From a virus, in IMG/VR virus record IMGVR_UViG_3300047463_000209, positions 1-32,907 of that record: DNA of 32,907 nucleotides, one strand, 5' to 3'. The number at the start of each line of letters is the position of its first letter. Position 1 is the first letter of the stretch. The notes under the pieces are model-generated. The model had not been told where the DNA came from. It was given only the letters and a program-made list of their open reading frames with translations, and ran no database searches. A program made the position numbers and the translations under genes. Positions 22,358 to 30,968 of this stretch are shown piece after piece.

Positions 22358-22528
22358 TTAATCGCTCACGGTATAGTCAGCATGATCATGACTAGGGCTA
22401 ACACCCGAGTAGTCCTGATTAGCGCCGCGAAGAGGCGACGAGACGTTAGTCGGAGGAGTTGGATGGTCCTCCGACTTCTTCTTCTTAGCAGTCTTCCTAG
22501 CCTCACTGAAGCTTAAGAACTTCCTCAT
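22358..22528 (-). CDS. 56-residue protein with CTS-like start
   Basis: Begins MRKFLSFSEARKTAKKKKSEDHP, is serine/proline-rich in the middle and ends HDHADYTVSD. The ATG overlaps the upstream stop as ATGA, so it is coupled to the scaffold-like gene. The first ten residues resemble the amphipathic capsid-targeting starts of T4 internal proteins, with a possible cut after FSE. It is basic and probably disordered. No function is known. Confidence 0.6.
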   Translation of the reverse strand: MRKFLSFSEARKTAKKKKSEDHPTPPTNVSSPLRGANQDYSGVSPSHDHADYTVSD

Positions 22529-24303
22529 TTGGCTCCGATTGCGGACTTGAACGAGGCGTGAGAGGCCTGAAGCTTCTGAGTGAACTCGTCCTTTTCTGGA
22601 GCCTTCTTGAACGATCCGTGCATGTCCAGAGCCTTCTGAACGTGACCCGCGTCCACCTTGACCTTCGACCCGTCGTGGAAGTGAATCGGACGGTTGTTAG
22701 CGCCGAGAGACTTAGCCTTGCGGAGCTGCATCACGATGTGCTCCGGACCGTCGTGCTTCTCGTCCTCGTCGTCGGCCTCGTTGAGCTTGGCTAGGATGCG
22801 CGCTGTCTCCTCGTCGGAGAGAGCGATCTCTTCATTAGTATTCTTTTGTCTGCGCTTTAATTCTCTCGTCGCTGCTGCCTTTTGTAGACCACCTGGACTG
22901 TGTGGCGCTACATCACGCTTTGACATATCTTTCAAAAAATCATCATCAGATGTTTTAACTCTGTTCATAATATCTTTGGGTTTTGCATCAGATCCTGTGC
23001 CCCAACCCTGCAGACTACGTTTGATGTTCTTAACAATTCCTTCGTCAATTTCGGCGACATCTTCCTTCATCGAGGCGTTGGTCTTGGCGATGTTCTCGAC
23101 CTCTTCCTTGCGGATCTTCTCGATGTACGAGCCCGGACCCATGAGCTTTAAGCTCTTGTGAAACTCTTGAGCATCCTTGAGCTTCTTGAACGTACGCTGC
23201 CACCTGCTGGGCTCGTTCCGTACGCGATTTCGGATCGATCGCGCGTGAACTCGATACACGGTCTTCGTGGTGGAGTTTGCTTTCTTCATCTTGAAGTCTT
23301 GCTCGTCAAGCTTGCCGTTGTGATTTTTGTCCAGCTTCTTCTGGCCGCCCTTCAGCTCTTCGTTGGCTGTTTCTTCATCAAAATTTCCGCCAGGTGCAAT
23401 ACCATGCTTAGGATGAATTTCATCTCCAACGTCTGGCTTAACTTTATGACCATCAGGTGTAACCCAATGTCTAAGTTTTTCATAGCCATTTTTTGCATTT
23501 CCGGGACCGTGTGTTACGGCGACATGGCCACCTTTAATTTTATTTGCGGCTGCAAGCGCACTCTTTAGGTTTTTATGGGTGCCATGCATCTTTTCATCAT
23601 CGCCAAACTGACCTACTGATCTAACGTGAAAAGCTGAAGCCTCTTCTAGCTCAACTTCCTCGTTAGCAGTCTTCATGTTCGGCGCGATGTCGACCTTAGT
23701 CTTCTTGCCGTCCTTACCGATCGGCTTATCAGCATCATCCTCGTCGTCGCTGTCGTCTTTCTTAGCTTTCGCGTCTTTATCGTCAGCGTCGTCGTCATTC
23801 TTAGACGGCTTCTTCTTGTCGTCTTCGTCTTTCTTCGCGAAGGGGTTCTTACCCTCTAGAACAGAGCGAACAGCCGCTACTAGATCTTCCGGTAAATTAT
23901 GATACTTCTGTAAAGACATAGATTTCTCCTGATTTTCTATTATTTTTCTTTGAATCTCAGCTTGCTTAGCAATCTTAGACCGCGGATCCATAGGTCCTTT
24001 AGCGGTGTCTGGACGGCCGACGTTGACGACTTTGCGTCTCTCGTCGGTGTTTCGATCGGGGTCTGTTTCTTCTTTCGAGAGACGTTTGACGAGAGAACTT
24101 CTGTCGGCGCTTCGTTCTTTTTCTCTGCGAGATATCTCTTTTGCTTTTGCTTGTTCTTGATTCTGCTTGTCATTGATAGCTCTCTTCTCAAGACTGTCTT
24201 TACGTTGTGAACTCAGATTCATACTAGAAGCTAAACTCTTAGTCTTTCTCGACTTAAAAGATGAATCGGAACCGATATAAGTTCCTTTAGTTATAGTTCC
24301 CAT
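22525..24303 (-). CDS. Large internal-head/scaffold-like protein with nested start
   Basis: A 592-residue, highly charged protein from the ATG at 24303, which overlaps the Dps stop (TAATG). Modules in order: basic coiled N-terminus (1-128), KYHNLPEDLVAAVRSVLEGK (133-152), Asp/Lys-rich linker (157-205), a His-rich unit (about 220-300), an EF-hand-like loop DKNHNGKLDEQDF (325-337), a basic helical unit (347-401) and a C-terminal His-rich unit. LxE/IxE sites (LEE before AS, IDE before GI, LNE before AD) fit the T4 gp21 protease consensus. An internal ATG at 23919 (Met129) has a perfect AGGAG six bases upstream, so a 464-residue form is likely. A role as prohead core or packaged protein is inferred. 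Confidence 0.6.
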   Translation of the reverse strand: MGTITKGTYIGSDSSFKSRKTKSLASSMNLSSQRKDSLEKRAINDKQNQEQAKAKEISRREKERSADRSSLVKRLSKEETDPDRNTDERRKVVNVGRPDTAKGPMDPRSKIAKQAEIQRKIIENQEKSMSLQKYHNLPEDLVAAVRSVLEGKNPFAKKDEDDKKKPSKNDDDADDKDAKAKKDDSDDEDDADKPIGKDGKKTKVDIAPNMKTANEEVELEEASAFHVRSVGQFGDDEKMHGTHKNLKSALAAANKIKGGHVAVTHGPGNAKNGYEKLRHWVTPDGHKVKPDVGDEIHPKHGIAPGGNFDEETANEELKGGQKKLDKNHNGKLDEQDFKMKKANSTTKTVYRVHARSIRNRVRNEPSRWQRTFKKLKDAQEFHKSLKLMGPGSYIEKIRKEEVENIAKTNASMKEDVAEIDEGIVKNIKRSLQGWGTGSDAKPKDIMNRVKTSDDDFLKDMSKRDVAPHSPGGLQKAAATRELKRRQKNTNEEIALSDEETARILAKLNEADDEDEKHDGPEHIVMQLRKAKSLGANNRPIHFHDGSKVKVDAGHVQKALDMHGSFKKAPEKDEFTQKLQASHASFKSAIGAK

Positions 24304-24740
24304 TAAGCCCTCGTCAGAGCGGTAAGCATCCAAGAATGCTTATAATGAATATCAATTCTGTCTTCTAAAAAGTTTACTATGCCGTAGGCTTTGGCAGCTT
24401 CAGCCTCGTCGTGGGCTTTTACCAGCTCTTCGATAACTTTCTGATTATCGTCACGTAGTCTTGAAAGCATGGTCTGCGCGTTAGGGATATTGATCTCGTC
24501 TTCTACAACAGACAATTCCTTAAATCGTGAGAATGATCCCGGCACGTAGGCCTTGGTGGTGCGAATGTGCTCAGCTATAGCGTCCACCGCCAGCCACAGT
24601 TCGTTGTATAGAGTCTCTAAGAACGCATGATACTGCGAGAAGTCCGGACCCTCTACGTTCCAGTGATAGTTATGAGCTTTGAGATACAGACCGAATGTCG
24701 ATGCCTGCACCACCTTCATCTGCGCGATTAATTTTTCCAT
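24303..24740 (-). CDS. dps: Dps/ferritin-like protein
   Basis: A 145-residue four-helix protein. Ferroxidase residues have the exact Dps spacing: H26 and H38 (HWNVEGPDFSQYH), D53 and E57 (AVDAIAEHI). The end (DIHYKHSWMLTALTRA) matches the Dps helix D. It would oxidise and store iron and could protect or compact DNA. The start is taken as ATG at 24740, since the 14-codon mini-gene upstream ends on it (TGATG). Its late-block position suggests action late in infection or in the virion. Confidence 0.88.
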   Translation of the reverse strand: MEKLIAQMKVVQASTFGLYLKAHNYHWNVEGPDFSQYHAFLETLYNELWLAVDAIAEHIRTTKAYVPGSFSRFKELSVVEDEINIPNAQTMLSRLRDDNQKVIEELVKAHDEAEAAKAYGIVNFLEDRIDIHYKHSWMLTALTRA

Positions 24741-24784
24741 CACTCGCCACCCTTTGAACTTGAGCTCTTTGCTGGATACATCAT
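24740..24784 (-). CDS. 14-residue mini-gene coupled to dps
   Basis: Encodes MMYPAKSSSSKGGE and stops with a TGA that overlaps the dps ATG. No good ribosome binding site precedes it. It may only bring ribosomes to dps. The first 14 bp are one copy of a tandem duplication. Confidence 0.3.
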   Translation of the reverse strand: MMYPAKSSSSKGGE

Positions 24785-24803: not shown

Positions 24804-25091
24804 TCAGCAGTTCCATGCCCGACGAGACCAGTAGTTGGCAGACGTCTTCTTGTTAAGATTACCCTGACCTGACGAACGAGCGCAGTATGACTTCTTACGG
24901 CCCGGCTGGTTCTTCTTAATAGTCATATTCTTGTCGCCGAAGTTGACTTTCTTGACGTTACCAGTCTTTGGGTCTTTAACGAACACTTTAGACTTCTTCA
25001 CGTCACCCTTCATGGGCTTATTAAGGGGCACTTCGCGACCCTTATATTTTGCCTCTACGATGACCTTCTTGACGGTGTCTAACGTGCTCAT
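24804..25091 (-). CDS. Small basic conserved phage protein
   Basis: A 95-residue protein with KYKGREVPLNKPMKGDVKKSKVFVKDPKTGNVKKVNFGDKNMTIKKNQPGRKKSYCARSSG and a YWSRRAW end. This is a widespread small family in T4-like and other large phages (KxKGREV...VxFGDxxM...RxSxxAR). It is basic, cysteine-poor here, and probably virion-linked. The stretch IVEAKY at residues 11-16 is a possible LxE/IxE cut. An exact late promoter precedes it. Confidence 0.8.
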   Translation of the reverse strand: MSTLDTVKKVIVEAKYKGREVPLNKPMKGDVKKSKVFVKDPKTGNVKKVNFGDKNMTIKKNQPGRKKSYCARSSGQGNLNKKTSANYWSRRAWNC

Positions 25092-25110: not shown

Positions 25111-25118
25111 TATTTATA
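25111..25118 (-). promoter_or_regulatory. T4-type late promoter (exact TATAAATA)
   Basis: Minus-strand TATAAATA, 19 bp before the ATG at 25091, with GGAGCGAGA as the ribosome binding site. It lies at the 3' end of the upstream gene. Confidence 0.7.
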
Positions 25119-25121
25119 ACT

Positions 25122-25508
25122 CTACTGACCTGGTGTGTCTCTCTTGTAGATGCGCACGGCTGAGTCAGTGGCGTCAAAGCGTGAGTCTGGATCATCAGAG
25201 TGAGTGGACTGAGGCTCTACTGTCTCCTTAGTCTTGAAGTGCTTGGTGCTATCGTGCACTGGCTTCAAGACACGCTTGATCAGTCGAGCTCTGTGCAGAG
25301 CAGGATTGACTGCTTCCTCGACAGATTCTTTCTGAGTGTATTGATCAGCGTCTACAACATTCTCTTCGCTCGTAGTCTGAGACGCTTTAAAGTCATCAGC
25401 TGTAGGAGCATCCTTAGAGCCTGGTTTGCGCATGCGTTCTCCCGAACCTCTCTTTATTCTCTCGCGTTTGGCGTGGATGTTGGCCCAGAGGCCTTTCTTC
25501 TTAGACAT
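25122..25508 (-). CDS. Conserved phage virion-associated protein
   Basis: A 128-residue protein starting KKKGLWANIHAKRERIKRGSGERMRKPGSKDAPTADDFKAS, a very common motif of T4-like phage proteins that often sits at the end of larger structural or head-core proteins. The rest is charged and probably disordered (SEENVVDADQYTQKESVEEA). The start overlaps the stop of the structural gene upstream. Function unknown. Confidence 0.75.
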   Translation of the reverse strand: MSKKKGLWANIHAKRERIKRGSGERMRKPGSKDAPTADDFKASQTTSEENVVDADQYTQKESVEEAVNPALHRARLIKRVLKPVHDSTKHFKTKETVEPQSTHSDDPDSRFDATDSAVRIYKRDTPGQ

Positions 25509-26827
25509 CAGAATACTACTTCTTCAAACTGTATACTACCACAGACGTTTGATGAATTTGTTCCACAAGTAACAGCTAAAGTCAAAGTTGATGTATTTCC
25601 AGTAAAAGTATTCCTTTCTAGCTGAAAGACAAATCTATCTCCAGATATAGTAGCCTGACCAGCTCCCTGCACTGTACTAGTAACATATCCTGAAATAAGA
25701 GTATTGCCTCCAGACATAGTAGCCGTAGTATTAGTATTATACTGTATCACTGAGCTAGTTACGTTAGCCCATTCAGCGCCGATTATATCAGCGTTATGCA
25801 CTAGCTGGTATCTATAGTTGCCAGAATTAATAGGCATAATATCTATGCCGTTCGGCAACACTATAGCATCAGGTGTATCAGGATTTAAGCGTATCGATAC
25901 TACTGGATAATAAGTTCCCGCTGTAGTCAAAGTGCGTTGTGTCGCAGCCTGAGGATCTAGTCCTATAGTTCTAGGACGACCAGACAACTCATATCCGCCT
26001 TCAGATATTACAGTAGAACAAATCTGTTTCAAGACGCTAGAAGTAGTAGTATTAGCAGTATTCTCTATTTCATATCGTATCGGCAAACAAGCAGTTTGAA
26101 TATACGGGCTGTTAGTAGAACTTGTTTGATTAGCATGATGAAATGCATGACATACTATCAATTCTCCATTTATCACAAATCCTATTCTGACAGAACCTAC
26201 TCCAAGCCATTCCATGTCCAAGAATAAAATCTGCGGATTATCTAGGTTCAGTGTTAAATGAGAAGGGCCATTTCCATCTAGCTTATCTACATTCCACTCC
26301 GCCTGATCTACGGAAACTTCATCTACTATTCCAGATACTTTAGATCTGCGCACTAAACATACACCGGTAGAAGTACGACTAGAACGTTCTAGATAATATC
26401 CATTATCAGATCCAAAATAACCTATTCTCTGTCTCAAACCAGTCTTGGCAGCATCCATCGAAAACGTAGTCATGAATAATAATGATTTTCCGGGTTGATA
26501 AGAAAATACACGCTTAGACTCACGATAAACGCTAGTATTCTGATTATTATCAACTGAAAGATTCATCGTACATGTATTAGCATTAAAATCACATGTTCCG
26601 CCCGCAGTATTAGCGGTATTAAACTTATTATTATCTTGATAACGATGATTCGAATCAAACAGTGTAAACGGATGTGAACTTCTAGCTCTACCGAACGCGT
26701 CTATTGCTGCGCCAGAAGGATTAGCCGCTCCGACCAAATTGCCATACTTATCAGCAAGCATGACGGTCTCAAAGAGAGTCTTCTCCTGATTGAGATACTG
26801 ATGCGTGTCTTTTCTAAACTGTGCCAT
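25508..26827 (-). CDS. Probable virion structural protein (conserved marine phage family)
   Basis: A 439-residue beta-rich protein. IDAFGRARSSHPFTLFDSNHRYQDNNKFNT, ESKRVFSYQPGKSLLFMTTFSM, GLRQRIGYFGSDNGYYLE, QILFLDMEWLGVGSVRIGFVINGELIVCHAF and SVLKQICSTVISEGGYEL recall a family that is frequent in marine phage genomes and virions, and probably carries a carbohydrate-binding-like sandwich. The N-terminus has no signal peptide. The C-terminal 150 residues (NTTATMSGGNTLISGY...) are a different, Thr-rich region and may be the variable part. The gene is AT-leaning. Confidence 0.7.
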   Translation of the reverse strand: MAQFRKDTHQYLNQEKTLFETVMLADKYGNLVGAANPSGAAIDAFGRARSSHPFTLFDSNHRYQDNNKFNTANTAGGTCDFNANTCTMNLSVDNNQNTSVYRESKRVFSYQPGKSLLFMTTFSMDAAKTGLRQRIGYFGSDNGYYLERSSRTSTGVCLVRRSKVSGIVDEVSVDQAEWNVDKLDGNGPSHLTLNLDNPQILFLDMEWLGVGSVRIGFVINGELIVCHAFHHANQTSSTNSPYIQTACLPIRYEIENTANTTTSSVLKQICSTVISEGGYELSGRPRTIGLDPQAATQRTLTTAGTYYPVVSIRLNPDTPDAIVLPNGIDIMPINSGNYRYQLVHNADIIGAEWANVTSSVIQYNTNTTATMSGGNTLISGYVTSTVQGAGQATISGDRFVFQLERNTFTGNTSTLTLAVTCGTNSSNVCGSIQFEEVVF

Positions 26828-27450
26828 TATTCATGTCCCATTGACTTACGCACGTCGTGAAATAACTCTTTCGCGTGCTCGTGGCTTACGTGTTCTGGTA
26901 CACCCTTACGAAACTCTTTGAAGTTCTTGCTCTTGGCGTGCTCGCGCATCTTAGACGCCGACATGCCCTCGGCACCCTCGGCATCCGGATCGCGGTGGCC
27001 AGCCGAAACCACAGAGATTTTCTTAAAGCTAAACGGGATGTTTCCCTTCTTATCAGGCTTTCCGTTATAGGTGTGCAGAAGCTTGTGGTACTCATGGACT
27101 CTGTCTGATCCAGCCACCATTATGAGATGGTCGTGACCAGCCTTGTTGAGGCGCGCGGCGTGATGCAGCAATGTAGGTTCTGTCTTAGTCGCGGCCCGAA
27201 TATTGGTATGCGGAAAGAAGCGCTTGGCGTGCTTGACCTTGGTCTCAGCGTCAAGCGGGTTCTTGTTCTTGTCGTGAGACGCAGACAGCACTACCTGGTG
27301 GTAGGCGCCGTGCTTCTTCGCCAGCTCGTGGACCTTGTCGACCAGCTTCGCGTGGCCGGTCGTCGGCGGGTTCATACGCCCGAACGCAAACACCACCGGC
27401 TTCTTCGGCGAGTCTGCGTCCTCGGCTAGAAAGTCTCTATAGCGCTTCAT
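26827..27450 (-). CDS. Nucleotidyltransferase (NMN adenylyltransferase-like) with CTS-like N-terminus
   Basis: A 207-residue HIGH-type nucleotidyltransferase. GRMNPPTTGH (24-33) is the HxGH-type motif, VAGSDRV (112-118) is the substrate loop and GMSASKMR (162-169) is the second nucleotide-binding motif (ISSTxxR type). NMN adenylyltransferase or phosphopantetheine-type activity is likely; phage NadM/NatV-like proteins exist. The first ten residues, MKRYRDFLAE, match the capsid-targeting sequence of T4 internal proteins (MKTYQEFIAE), with a gp21-type cut after LAE. The C-terminal region is rich in His/Lys. It overlaps the ligase-like gene by 4 bp. Confidence 0.78.
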   Translation of the reverse strand: MKRYRDFLAEDADSPKKPVVFAFGRMNPPTTGHAKLVDKVHELAKKHGAYHQVVLSASHDKNKNPLDAETKVKHAKRFFPHTNIRAATKTEPTLLHHAARLNKAGHDHLIMVAGSDRVHEYHKLLHTYNGKPDKKGNIPFSFKKISVVSAGHRDPDAEGAEGMSASKMREHAKSKNFKEFRKGVPEHVSHEHAKELFHDVRKSMGHE

Positions 27451-28652
27451 TCTTTTTCCTTCTTGGCCTGCTGCATCTTACCCATCAGGAAGTTCTGACG
27501 CGAGAACTGCTTCCTATTTACGAACTTTGACATGTCACCAGCCTTACTCACGGCCACCGCGCCCTCGGGACCGGTCTTAGCGCCGCCGATCGAGTGCTCA
27601 AACTCCTGATTCTTAGCCATCACTCCGGTGAGTACGTCTTTGGCGTGCTGGAGGTGCTTATGCAGCTCTAGAGCCCGGTCGAAGTGCTTCTTGTTGTCAG
27701 AGACGTGCTTCATGAAGCTGTCGAGCTTCTCGCGGCGCTGCTGCTTGGCCTTCTCGCTCTTTAGCTTATCTATGTCCTTAGAGATATTACCGGTAATGTG
27801 CTTGACGTATCCCTCAGTGGACGGCTCGCCGCCCTTCCTGACCATGTCGTTTACGTGAGCCTCAAGATTTGTCTCGTGACCCTTGAGCTTGTCAAGAGCG
27901 TCTGGATGCATCTTCGCGTACGTAGCCTTGGCCTTAGACATCGCGTCGTGATACTTCTGCTGCTCTTTCGGGGTATAGTGCGATGAGTCTGCCTTTATGG
28001 TAGGGTCTATGTTATGGACGTCGGGATGATGAGTAAACTTGTCGCGGTCGACGTGTGGCGTCGCGTGCATATTTTGAAGATCGCCTTTGCCCTCGTACTT
28101 CGTGTGTACGACGACGCCAAGCTTAGAGTTTCTGATCGCCTTGCCGTGAGCGCTGTCGACGTCGGTCGAGTACGTGATGGTGTTGGGCGTGAAGCTCAGC
28201 TTATTGCCATGCTTCTTGATGTCTTCCTTGGTGTGCATCACGTCGCCCTGGTAGACGCCGTGCTTGGGAGTTATCTTGGGCAGGTGCTTCAGGGCAGTCT
28301 TGAGCTTGTCCACCAGACCAGGCGCGTGTCCGTGGTTCTGCTCTATGTCTTTGTTGGTGTAGTTGATCTTTGGATTCTTGTTGAAGGCTGACTTGGTGCC
28401 GACGAAGAACCTGCCGTTCTTGGGATGGTATCCAAACACTATCGACGGAGCGCCGTCGTACTTTGTAGATAGATGTAGGTCTGTCTTCTTGCCCATGAGT
28501 GCGGCATGAGCGCCCTCGAGCGCGTGCCCGGCTTTGGCAACGCCCTCGTTACCTGAGTGAATGATGTGATCTTCCGTGTGCGTCAGATGCTTGAGAGGCT
28601 TACCGCCCTGGTCCTCAGCCTGCTCTGTCAAGAAATTAACGAAGCTCTTCAT
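27447..28652 (-). CDS. Nucleic-acid ligase/nucleotidyltransferase-like protein with CTS-like N-terminus
   Basis: A 401-residue protein. LSTKYDGAPS (61-70) has the KxDG nucleotidyltransferase motif I, with K64 as the predicted adenylation site. FFVGTKSAF, GVYQGDVMHT (motif III-like) and LGVVVHTKYEG (motif IV-like) follow in order. This fits the DUF6267-type family of phage proteins related to ligases. The C-terminal half is helical and basic and ends FVNRKQFSRQNFLMGKM. MKSFVNFLTE matches the T4 capsid-targeting sequence with a cut after LTE, so a packaged role is inferred. The substrate is unknown. Confidence 0.72.
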   Translation of the reverse strand: MKSFVNFLTEQAEDQGGKPLKHLTHTEDHIIHSGNEGVAKAGHALEGAHAALMGKKTDLHLSTKYDGAPSIVFGYHPKNGRFFVGTKSAFNKNPKINYTNKDIEQNHGHAPGLVDKLKTALKHLPKITPKHGVYQGDVMHTKEDIKKHGNKLSFTPNTITYSTDVDSAHGKAIRNSKLGVVVHTKYEGKGDLQNMHATPHVDRDKFTHHPDVHNIDPTIKADSSHYTPKEQQKYHDAMSKAKATYAKMHPDALDKLKGHETNLEAHVNDMVRKGGEPSTEGYVKHITGNISKDIDKLKSEKAKQQRREKLDSFMKHVSDNKKHFDRALELHKHLQHAKDVLTGVMAKNQEFEHSIGGAKTGPEGAVAVSKAGDMSKFVNRKQFSRQNFLMGKMQQAKKEKE

Positions 28653-29359
28653 GTACCATCCTTAATTCTCTTGCGCTCGTCCGGTGAGTAGAACGACATG
28701 CCGCCGTGCTCAGCGTCCTGATTGAACTTGTTTGCTACAGCTTTATTTACCCTGGTGTCTCCGGTATCCTCGTCGTGCTGGACGTGGTGAGCGACGAGCT
28801 TGACGCTCGGGTGGTGGCCCTTGAGGCCGAGAAAGTGAGTTAGGTTTTCCTTTGAGTCGTCGTAGAGGTGAACTTCGTCATAGCCGTGCTGGTGTATCAG
28901 GTTAGACACTATGTTGCGCTTGCGCTCAGCTGGTGTTCCCTTGTCTAGATTGCCGGCGCGCCTGACGTGAATCTTGTTGATGTCTATTCCGTGCTTCTTC
29001 AGGTGAGAGCCAAACTTGTCCTTATCGTCCATGTCAGATCTTGCCGTGAGGATCTCGACGTGTGGGTTACGGCGATGGATGTTCTTCAGCCGCTTGATCA
29101 TCTTGCGAATAGGGTGAGCTGACTTAGTGAAGACGTCCGATGACTTGAAGTCTGAGAAGTCGTAGTGGTGGTTGGGCTCTAGCTTGTGGTTGTTGAACTG
29201 AACGTTGGTGAGAGACTTTACACGCTCTCCGGCAGAATTGTTGACGTGAATCTTTGGTTCTGTCTTAGGATCCGGATAATGAAACAGAGTCTCGTCCATG
29301 TCAAAGACGTGTAGGATCTTTCGTTTATTTTCTTCAAGCAAGTTTGAAAAAGAATGCAT
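28649..29359 (-). CDS. HAD-superfamily phosphatase with CTS-like N-terminus
   Basis: A 236-residue HAD protein. HVFDMDETLF holds D20 and D22, ILTARSD (T105) is motif II, K140 a possible motif III residue, and YDDSKEN (D167/D168) motif IV. A long cap-like insert (about 30-95) separates motifs I and II. MHSFSNLLEE resembles the capsid-targeting sequence, with a possible cut after LEE, though it is less close than in the two downstream genes. A nucleotide or polynucleotide phosphatase role is likely; coupling to the ligase-like gene by 4 bp supports end processing. Confidence 0.75.
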   Translation of the reverse strand: MHSFSNLLEENKRKILHVFDMDETLFHYPDPKTEPKIHVNNSAGERVKSLTNVQFNNHKLEPNHHYDFSDFKSSDVFTKSAHPIRKMIKRLKNIHRRNPHVEILTARSDMDDKDKFGSHLKKHGIDINKIHVRRAGNLDKGTPAERKRNIVSNLIHQHGYDEVHLYDDSKENLTHFLGLKGHHPSVKLVAHHVQHDEDTGDTRVNKAVANKFNQDAEHGGMSFYSPDERKRIKDGT

Positions 29360-29364
29360 GTTTT

Positions 29365-30771
29365 TTAGAAAAGTTTGCCGAAGGGACCAAAACTTGGACC
29401 CTTCTTCATTGATATGAAGGTTAAATCTGTCATGAAGGCGTCTAGCTTATCTTGTGTTAGTTTAGTTAACTCATGAATAAAAGTCAACTGCATCAGCTTA
29501 GAGTTAGCCACGTGTGGTTGAGATAACAGTATAGAGTTAATATTATTAACAAACTCAGAGGAGTTCTGTACGCCGACATCTACTCCCTTATTCTTAACGC
29601 CGTTAAAGATGTTGACGAATTTGGCAGACTGACTATTAAACTGCTGCACGGTTTTTGGATAACTGTTGTGGTTGTTATCAAAAGATAAGCCATACTGCTT
29701 TAGTAAGCTTACTACCATGTCTACTGGCGCCTTGCCTAATCTTGCAGCCGCCGCGCCTGAAGCAGTAGACTCCCACTTTAAGTTTGAGTAAGAAGACGTG
29801 TTGTTACCCTGAATCTGAAACTTTATAGTTCCATAATTGTTTCCGTTGAGAGTAATTTTAGAGTCTTGAGTTCTAAATTTATTAGAACCTAAGCCAAGAT
29901 CTATCTTCTTATTAGTAACTTTAAACTTATAGCCATCACCGGACTCAAACATCACGTCGTCGGTGTTAACCTCTTCATATCTAGCCTTGCTCCCAGATAT
30001 CTTCTTAAGAGATATTCCAACTACACGACGCTGCTTAAACAACGTTCTGAGCAGCGCGTTTAGCTCGTTGATCGACTTTGACTCGCCGGTTCTGTTTATT
30101 AAACTGTCTATCTCGCTTTTTACTTTATTCTCATTCTGCACGAGCCATATGTCGGCTGGGTTCCAGGTATCTTTCTGAGATATTCCATACTTATTGTTGG
30201 CCACATCCGTGATATATTTCATGAACCCACCCTCGCGGGAGAACTCAGTAAACTTGGAGTCAGAGAACTCCTCAAGCATCTTCTCCTGCTGGAGGAAGAA
30301 AGACTTCAGCCATTCCTCATCATCATCGATCTCCGGATATATCTGTAGCAATTCTTGATACTTGTCATCAAGCTTTATGTCTAGATACGTGTTGTATTTC
30401 TTGTTATCTTGGAGAGCGCGTCTCATTATCCAAGCAGAAGCGAGCTCTTGCTTGCGAGTAGCCTGAGCGTCGGTCGTGGCGCCGCCGGCTTTTTTACGAG
30501 ATTTTTTGAATTGAATTTTATAGTCGAAGATTCCTATGTTGTATTTCTCACCGTCTTCGCGCCCGGCAATACTTTTCTTTATAAAGTCAAAGTTATCTTC
30601 ATTACACTTGATCTGCCATTGCGCCGTCTTATTCCTAGACCACAGGGAGTCGGCAAAAAATCCTTCTTTGGGGCTTGGTATTCTCTCAAGAAGCTTCTTT
30701 AGCCCTGCTCTAAGATCAGACGGGGCGTGTTCAAGCGTCTTATCGCGGTCTAGTGAGAAACTGGTAGCCAT
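29365..30771 (-). CDS. Possible PD-(D/E)XK-type nuclease, late gene
   Basis: A 468-residue protein with no familiar name. Motifs in order: RKQELASAW (E109), DTWNPADIWLV (D207) and VVGISLKKI (254-256, S-L-K in place of the usual D/E-x-K). The NPADIW plus SLK pair is what I associate with PD-(D/E)XK nuclease-like phage proteins. The second half is basic with FKVTNKKIDLGLG strands, and the end reads FISMKKGPSFGPFGKLF. It is the first gene of the late block, after an AATAAATA promoter. If correct it may act on DNA, but a virion role is also possible. Confidence 0.45.
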   Translation of the reverse strand: MATSFSLDRDKTLEHAPSDLRAGLKKLLERIPSPKEGFFADSLWSRNKTAQWQIKCNEDNFDFIKKSIAGREDGEKYNIGIFDYKIQFKKSRKKAGGATTDAQATRKQELASAWIMRRALQDNKKYNTYLDIKLDDKYQELLQIYPEIDDDEEWLKSFFLQQEKMLEEFSDSKFTEFSREGGFMKYITDVANNKYGISQKDTWNPADIWLVQNENKVKSEIDSLINRTGESKSINELNALLRTLFKQRRVVGISLKKISGSKARYEEVNTDDVMFESGDGYKFKVTNKKIDLGLGSNKFRTQDSKITLNGNNYGTIKFQIQGNNTSSYSNLKWESTASGAAAARLGKAPVDMVVSLLKQYGLSFDNNHNSYPKTVQQFNSQSAKFVNIFNGVKNKGVDVGVQNSSEFVNNINSILLSQPHVANSKLMQLTFIHELTKLTQDKLDAFMTDLTFISMKKGPSFGPFGKLF

Positions 30772-30791: not shown

Positions 30792-30799
30792 TATTTATT
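30792..30799 (-). promoter_or_regulatory. Putative late promoter (AATAAATA)
   Basis: Minus-strand AATAAATA, one base from the late consensus, 20 bp before the ATG at 30771 and just after the terminator at 30816-30842, so it can start the late block. Confidence 0.5.
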
Positions 30800-30815
30800 C
30801 ATATGAATACACACG

Positions 30816-30842
30816 AAAAAGGGGAGGTCTTAGGACCTCCCC
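30816..30842 (-). terminator. Strong Rho-independent terminator
   Basis: Minus strand: GGGGAGGTC, loop CTAA, GACCTCCCC (30842-30821), a 9-bp perfect stem, followed directly by TTTTT. It ends transcripts from gene 41 and from the late promoter at 30961. Confidence 0.9.
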
Positions 30843-30955
30843 CAATGAATAAAGCAGACTGGGCCGGGCGGAACCCCACCGTGATTCCCGGCTCTTCCTT
30901 GCTGATGTAGATACTCTGTGCCTCTTGCGCTGCAGCGCAATACCAGTCCGTCAGT
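30843..30955 (-). ncRNA. Candidate late-expressed structured small RNA
   Basis: About 113 nt between a late promoter and a terminator, with no reading frame of note. The fold is a three-way junction: closing stem GACTGG/CCAGTC (857-862 with 943-948 of kb 30), helix GCCGGG/CCCGGC (863-868 with 887-892) extended by CGG/CCG around a 7-nt loop, and hairpin TTGCGC-TGCA-GCGCAA (925-940). The closing stem and second helix abut and could stack. A 32-nt purine-rich single strand joins them. It does not fold as tRNA and matches no RNA family I know. Confidence 0.6.
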
Positions 30956-30960
30956 GGGTT

Positions 30961-30968
30961 TATTTATA
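30961..30968 (-). promoter_or_regulatory. T4-type late promoter (exact TATAAATA) before the structured RNA
   Basis: Minus-strand TATAAATA overlaps the stop codon of the small gene at 30964. No start codon with a usable gene follows before the terminator. The predicted +1 is the A at 30955, so the transcript would be about 140 nt long. Confidence 0.65.

Follow-up and report, generated by a model that had tools for sequence, protein, structure and literature searches.

The locus studied here raises the question of why three adjacent genes for different enzymes, in a fragment of a T4-related phage, should all begin with nearly the same ten residues. The fragment is the IMG/VR record IMGVR_UViG_3300047463_000209, analysed at its full length of 32.9 kb (32,907 nucleotides; hereafter the window), and its open reading frames (ORFs) include T4-like genes for a gp41-like helicase, primase, nrdA/B, thyX and phoH. 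On its minus strand lie, in order of transcription, genes for a HAD-superfamily phosphatase (28649..29359; 236 aa), for a DUF6267 protein predicted from its sequence and model to be an RNA/DNA-ligase-like covalent nucleotidyltransferase (27447..28652; 401 aa), and for an NMNAT/cytidylyltransferase-like enzyme of the T4-GC190 group (26827..27450; 207 aa; hereafter the nucleotidyltransferase). Consecutive genes overlap by 4 bp (28649–28652 and 27447–27450), and their products start with MHSFSNLLEE (29330..29359), MKSFVNFLTE (28623..28652) and MKRYRDFLAE (27421..27450), respectively, all as described in the original prediction. That prediction likened these starts to the tag by which internal proteins of T4 are targeted to the capsid, and the comparison has held: the three enzymes are very likely head cargo, packaged by means of a T4-type tag.

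In T4, the capsid targeting sequence is carried by IPI, IPII, IPIII and Alt (Mullaney and Black 1996; reviewed in PMC9026906 and PMC3012670), and in IPIII residues 4 and 7 serve targeting while residues 8 and 10 serve cutting (PMC9026906). The N-terminus of IPII and IPIII, read from NC_000866, is MKTYQEFIAE, the sequence quoted in the prediction, and it matches the tags of the window position by position, giving a consensus pattern of about ten residues, M-x-x-F/Y-x-x-F/L-I/L-x-E. Positions 4 and 7 are F4/F7 in the DUF6267 protein, Y4/F7 in the nucleotidyltransferase and F4/L7 in the phosphatase, whose tag, with Leu at position 7, is the weakest of the three and fits a relaxed motif only. An [LI]xE site ends at residue 10 in all three proteins, as had been pointed out, and cleavage by the gp21 protease is predicted after E10 in the DUF6267 protein and the nucleotidyltransferase, and after E9/E10 in the phosphatase.

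Such short similarities could arise from N-terminal composition, and the tag was therefore sought in other genes by means of a strict motif, M.{1,3}[FY]..[FY][ILV].E, with every gene called by the same rule (longest ORF, alternative starts permitted). Across seven genomes or large contigs 16 genes carry the motif where shuffling predicts about 0.5, and only 1 of about 4,000 internal methionines matches it; the majority of the 16 genes lie in the block after gp41, which is also the location of the three genes of the window. When related loci were added to the seven genomes, 151 of 3,182 non-redundant genes were tagged, whereas 420 permuted versions of the motif gave 2.9 matches on average and 34 at best. 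Chance composition was ruled out as the origin of the tag by the shuffles, the internal-methionine counts and the permuted motifs taken together. The 151 genes fall into 25 clusters without mutual BLAST similarity, and these include an adenylate kinase, a RimK-type ATP-grasp ligase and a protein in which a HAD-like domain is fused to a region weakly matching M78 peptidase. The strict tag is present in 60 of 105 DUF6267 proteins, 19 of 39 HAD proteins and 22 of 69 nucleotidyltransferases, so tagged and untagged members coexist within each family while the tag itself is shared across unrelated proteins. The RimK-type ligase (phage Melnitz, L147:82-1131) and the adenylate kinase (L059:1261-1863) both carry the strict tag and are predicted head cargo. 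Among cultured phages, the DUF6267 protein of Stenotrophomonas phage DLP_6 is tagged, and near-tags occur in Melnitz, a Methylophilales phage.

Equivalence to the T4 signal was examined with a position matrix built solely from the N-termini of the three enzyme families. Applied to 283 called T4 genes, it placed IPI, IPII and IPIII at ranks 2–4. This bears on the idea that the common N-terminus serves the assembly of some other phage structure or enzyme complex and has nothing to do with head packaging. The genes do adjoin one for the virion structural family phrog_1645 (25508..26827, minus strand, by profile match), and an untagged protein of the corresponding block, S-SZBM1_139, is also found in virions; however, the matrix recovers precisely those T4 proteins whose tag directs them into the head, and the residues of the gp21 site, 8 and 10, are conserved, so that a signal of this other kind is considered improbable.

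The matrix also yielded an observation on T4 itself. Rank 1 fell to gp61.1, a protein of 54 aa without an assigned function (MKTFKEFIKEDM...; L177:18966-19130), the gene for which lies between genes 61 and 41. As this interval is where the tagged block is located in relatives, gp61.1 is possibly an unrecognised internal protein, judging by its N-terminus and position.

An outside test of packaging is provided by published virion proteomes, within the parts of those papers that were available. The nucleotidyltransferase family has been detected by mass spectrometry (MS) in purified virions of S-SM1 (as T4-GC190, a number that could be tied to the S-SM1 gene; PMC3037559), S-SZBM1 (gene 140, in the virion list; PMC9146016), S-SCSM1 (ORF91; PMC9602691) and S-CREM2 (ORF154, as a cytidylyltransferase; PMC10665884). 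All four of these T4-like cyanophage proteins carry the strict tag (MKKFSAFLNEA, MKNFSSFLTEA, MRFRQFIIEA and MKSFLQFLKEA). The S-SZBM1 virion list includes the tagged product of gene 140 and lacks the neighbouring, untagged DUF6267 protein of gene 141. Scored against 223 S-CREM2 genes, the matrix ranked a SAM hydrolase, an APH/ChoK kinase (start codon GTG) and the cytidylyltransferase first to third, and these are precisely the three virion proteins that the published table classes as 'regulatory', a result with a chance of 1 in 1.8 million; rank 4 is likewise a virion protein.

Other tagged or tag-like proteins of these phages were seen in passing. Two related small proteins, S-SZBM1_191 (L186:27312-27629, MKSFKSFLSESVNISGDFNG) and SSCSM1_30 (L219:1216-1536, MKTFKQFMSESVNISGDFNG), are tagged and encoded near structural genes; the former is missing from the virion list and the latter has no virion-protein label. 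An MS-detected virion protein of S-CREM2 annotated as Cas9 (OR473000 7704-10313, minus strand) has, by eye, a tag-like RFASFMAEA 17 residues from its annotated start, a distance that explains its low position in the matrix test.

If the tag is a protein signal, its key positions should have been preserved by selection, and comparison of N-termini among the close relatives of the window agrees with this. The ratio of nonsynonymous to synonymous polymorphism (pN/pS) is 0.13 at tag positions 4, 7, 8 and 10, similar to the 0.14 of the enzyme bodies, and 0.54 at the remaining tag positions; synonymous sites are near saturation, so it is the contrast that is meaningful and not the absolute values. 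Strong purifying selection thus acts on positions 4, 7, 8 and 10 but not on the rest of the tag. Conservation of a signal at the level of DNA or translation was ruled out as the cause, given that synonymous sites within the tag are near-saturated while these four residues are held. In an alignment of 44 DUF6267 sequences, E10 is at least 90% conserved. Structure models agree with a tag separable from the folded domain, the mean predicted local distance difference test score (pLDDT) of AlphaFold models being 47 for residues 1–10 of the phosphatase and below 50 for residues 1–18 of the DUF6267 protein, which indicates disorder. Outside the tag, the three proteins contain no [LI]xE site, although shuffling predicts 4.06 in their bodies (P = 0.013 for finding none), and internal avoidance is clear when counted per protein, with observed-to-expected ratios of 0.81 versus 1.21. 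The gp21 protease family (PF03420) is encoded by every complete phage genome examined and by three large contigs.

Several observations weigh against packaging and need to be set beside this evidence. Some members of all three families are untagged, for example the nucleotidyltransferases of P-HM2, RaK2 and Deifobo, as is DUF6267 in several cyanophages. The avoidance of internal [LI]xE sites loses significance when each cluster is counted once (p 0.09), and untagged DUF6267 proteins are equally depleted; as proof of exposure to gp21 the avoidance was rejected, and it is suggestive only. No gene for gp21, scaffold or capsid was found in the 32.9-kb fragment, which, being the whole record, leaves the phage's own head genes and protease outside view. 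Over all S-CREM2 genes the tag score fails to separate virion from non-virion proteins, as is to be expected when most virion proteins are structural. The available texts of the proteome papers report no DUF6267 or HAD peptide from virions and no processing of N-termini, and the texts on RaK2 (whose nucleotidyltransferase is untagged) and CBB do not mention virion detection of the nucleotidyltransferase.

The authors of two of the cyanophage papers, as far as their texts were available, also allow that virion enzymes could have co-purified as contaminants. Taken further, this would mean that the enzymes act in infection only, the nucleotidyltransferase in virions being contamination of the kind caused by abundant late proteins and the tag a coincidence of composition. 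Such a coincidence would have to account for the tag on all four detected nucleotidyltransferases, for 151 matches against 2.9 in the permutation control, and for three non-structural regulatory proteins taking the top three of 223 tag scores in S-CREM2, and it is regarded as highly improbable. Packaging by a T4-type tag is therefore retained: the T4 cross-prediction, the S-CREM2 ranking, the tagged virion nucleotidyltransferases, the pattern of selection and the presence of gp21 in relatives all agree with what had been proposed from the N-termini. With a T4 head label on the three enzymes, and enzymes bearing the same label in the purified particles of relatives, it is by analogy probable that they enter the bacterium with the viral DNA.

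What the cargo does depends on the identity of the enzymes, each of which had been named in the original prediction. The phosphatase has the complete set of motifs that defines the HAD superfamily (D20xD22xT24, T105, K147 and D167-D168, invariant in 26 relatives), matches phrog_415 'polynucleotide kinase' (1.2e-11) and falls slightly short of the Pfam cut-off for Acid_phosphat_B (2.5e-5); its model has a mean pLDDT of 83.5. Foldseek was tried as a source of a more exact identity and set aside, as its best rows, generic Rossmann-like folds and, at E about 1e-3, the HAD domain of Lem4, pointed to no specific function.

The second protein, described as ligase-like from its KxDG motif, belongs to DUF6267 (PF19782, 1.7e-95). 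Motifs I, III, IV and V of nucleotidyltransferases (K64xD66G67, Q135-G-D137, E363GxV366 and K376) are invariant in the 44 sequences, and structure has upheld the ligase reading. The model (pLDDT 90.6) gave no significant match with Foldseek alone, but with VIA-align all 50 listed rows were RNA or DNA ligases, led by a Naegleria RNA ligase (Z 9.0, 184 residues, 3.7 Å) and including TbREL1 (Z 8.2) and T4 Rnl1 (Z 7.3). A Z of about 9 is modest on its own, but the reading is kept because the rows all agree and the motifs provide separate evidence. DUF6267 thus has an RNA-ligase-like fold with nucleotidyltransferase motifs and a predicted activity of that kind, according to sequence and model. In predicted fold and motifs it is like T4 Rnl1 and Rnl2, NgrRnl, TbREL1 and Trl1. 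It differs from the RNA ligases of T4 and eukaryotes in being tagged and in its lack of detectable sequence similarity, a profile search of the PDB with the three proteins' sequences having returned no useful chain.

The third enzyme matches CTP_transf_like (PF01467, 6.1e-6) and phrog_3041 (1e-62) and carries the fold-family motifs GRMNPPTTGH (HxGH-type) and SASKMR (SxTxxR/K-type). It had been called NMN-adenylyltransferase-like, which stands at the level of the fold family but not at that of the curated NMNAT model, TIGR00482, where its score of 17.5 bits lies far below the cut-off of 112.45; it is therefore classed by fold family only, and not as an NMNAT.

By analogy with T4, the tag would bind the scaffold core of the prohead, and the enzymes would in this way be enclosed as proheads form late in infection. 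The gp21 protease would then cut after the glutamate at position 10, and the mature enzymes would remain among the packaged DNA and reach the next host along with it. There, in the first minutes of infection, they could act ready-made, the phosphatase and the ligase-fold enzyme processing nucleic-acid ends and the nucleotidyltransferase performing a nucleotide or NAD reaction, and would counter host nucleases or other defences. That end repair is the role of the set can be put forward only tentatively. The enzymes may instead be packaged for NAD or nucleotide metabolism, as an NMNAT-like step, a phosphatase and a small-molecule nucleotidyltransferase; this suits the GRMNPPTTGH and SASKMR motifs, the adenylate kinase among tagged cargo elsewhere, and a proposal of NAD synthesis by published authors (PMC9602691, in the part available). 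It fits less well with the alignment of DUF6267, which is best with RNA ligases, or with the match of the phosphatase to the polynucleotide kinase/phosphatase family phrog_415, a weak link; neither fixes a substrate. Metabolism as the purpose is somewhat unlikely when taken by itself, and the two kinds of chemistry are about equally defensible.

The surroundings of the three genes are consistent with late expression. The operon appears to begin with a gene for a phrog_1462 protein (29365..30771, minus strand, by profile match), untagged here but with a tagged member in the relative L068, and to continue beyond the nucleotidyltransferase with the phrog_1645 gene, the two sharing 1 bp at 26827. 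The operon is preceded, at a distance of about 20 bp, by AATAAATA (30792..30799, minus strand), an element like a T4-type late promoter, and an intrinsic terminator-like hairpin with a T run, read from the sequence, stands between the operon and the helicase region (30815..30843, minus strand). Late-promoter-like TATAAATA sites occur three times in the window, on the minus strand only, where 0.63 would be expected; among them are those at 30961..30968 and 25111..25118. They support the placing of the genes in a late block, which the prediction had also made. Among 104 loci with DUF6267, a HAD gene is nearby in 33 and a nucleotidyltransferase gene in 64, and in S-PM2 DUF6267 is fused to the nucleotidyltransferase. 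No match to anti-phage defence families was obtained in a PADLOC search.

Elsewhere in the window, profile matches identify T4-type RNA repair genes in split form, each of them untagged and on the minus strand, for a P-loop kinase (264-743), an Rnl1-like ligase (730-1881) and a PNKP-type phosphatase (1920-2363), so that similar enzyme classes occur tagged and untagged within one phage. Just downstream of the TATAAATA site at 25111..25118, the gene at 24804..25091 (minus strand) encodes a protein of 95 aa with a net charge of +19, a pI of 10.4 and an IVE site (residues 11–13) that is followed by A and immediately precedes a conserved domain. Proteins like it occur in C48C1, where the protein is tagged (start MKKFKQYIDE), and in HTVC008M. 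From these features it is likely to be another internal protein. The product of 22525-24333 (minus strand) is a basic protein of 602 aa in the virion block; with its low-complexity segments and six [LI]xE sites, it may be a polyprotein of core or scaffold-like type that gp21 cleaves. A Dps/ferritin-like protein, untagged, is encoded within the block of virion genes at 24303-24743 (minus strand).

The packaging mechanism itself is known from T4, and the detection of the nucleotidyltransferase in virions has been published; the tag as the reason for that detection was not found described in the texts available. A literature search for capsid targeting sequence and cyanophage, with partial coverage, returned a T4 review only, and the cyanophage papers (PMC3037559, PMC9146016, PMC9602691, PMC10665884), in the parts available, name no targeting signal for virion enzymes and do not discuss DUF6267 or the HAD protein. 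The nucleotidyltransferase of the window resembles those of S-SM1, S-SZBM1, S-SCSM1 and S-CREM2 in family and tag, and three of the four share the gp41-to-gp61 neighbourhood. With IPI–III and Alt of T4, the window proteins share the ten-residue pattern, the key positions 4, 7, 8 and 10, the [LI]xE cut site and a diversity of cargo that has the tag alone in common. T4 itself packages an inhibitor of restriction, an ADP-ribosyltransferase and two proteins whose role is unclear, whereas in the window a single operon would supply the cargo, namely an enzyme with a ligase fold, a HAD phosphatase and an NMNAT-like enzyme. In relatives, unlike in T4, the tag extends to 25 protein clusters that share no BLAST similarity. 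As far as the literature was searched, the new elements are the tag on many unrelated enzymes of T4-like phages, marine and freshwater alike, the ligase fold predicted for DUF6267, the presence of the tag on both DUF6267 and its HAD partner, and the matrix that predicts cargo.

It could be speculated that marine and freshwater T4-related phages carry in their heads an end-healing and sealing kit (HAD, DUF6267 and nucleotidyltransferase), separate from the untagged, cytoplasmic RNA repair genes and delivered with the DNA, that would undo the effect of nuclease-based defences ahead of all phage gene expression, and that the tag marks a large, unread inventory of injected enzymes; this wider picture is possible, though offered with reserve. 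The proteins that phages inject are mostly uncharted because proteomics is needed phage by phage. A tag that predicts cargo consistently with virion proteomes would allow injected enzymes to be read from genomes alone, across one of the ocean's most abundant virus groups, and it favours real packaging over the contamination that the cyanophage proteome papers had allowed for. The DUF6267 family, of unknown function, now has a predicted fold and a likely site at which it acts, and delivery of such enzymes becomes testable through a single point mutation in the tag.

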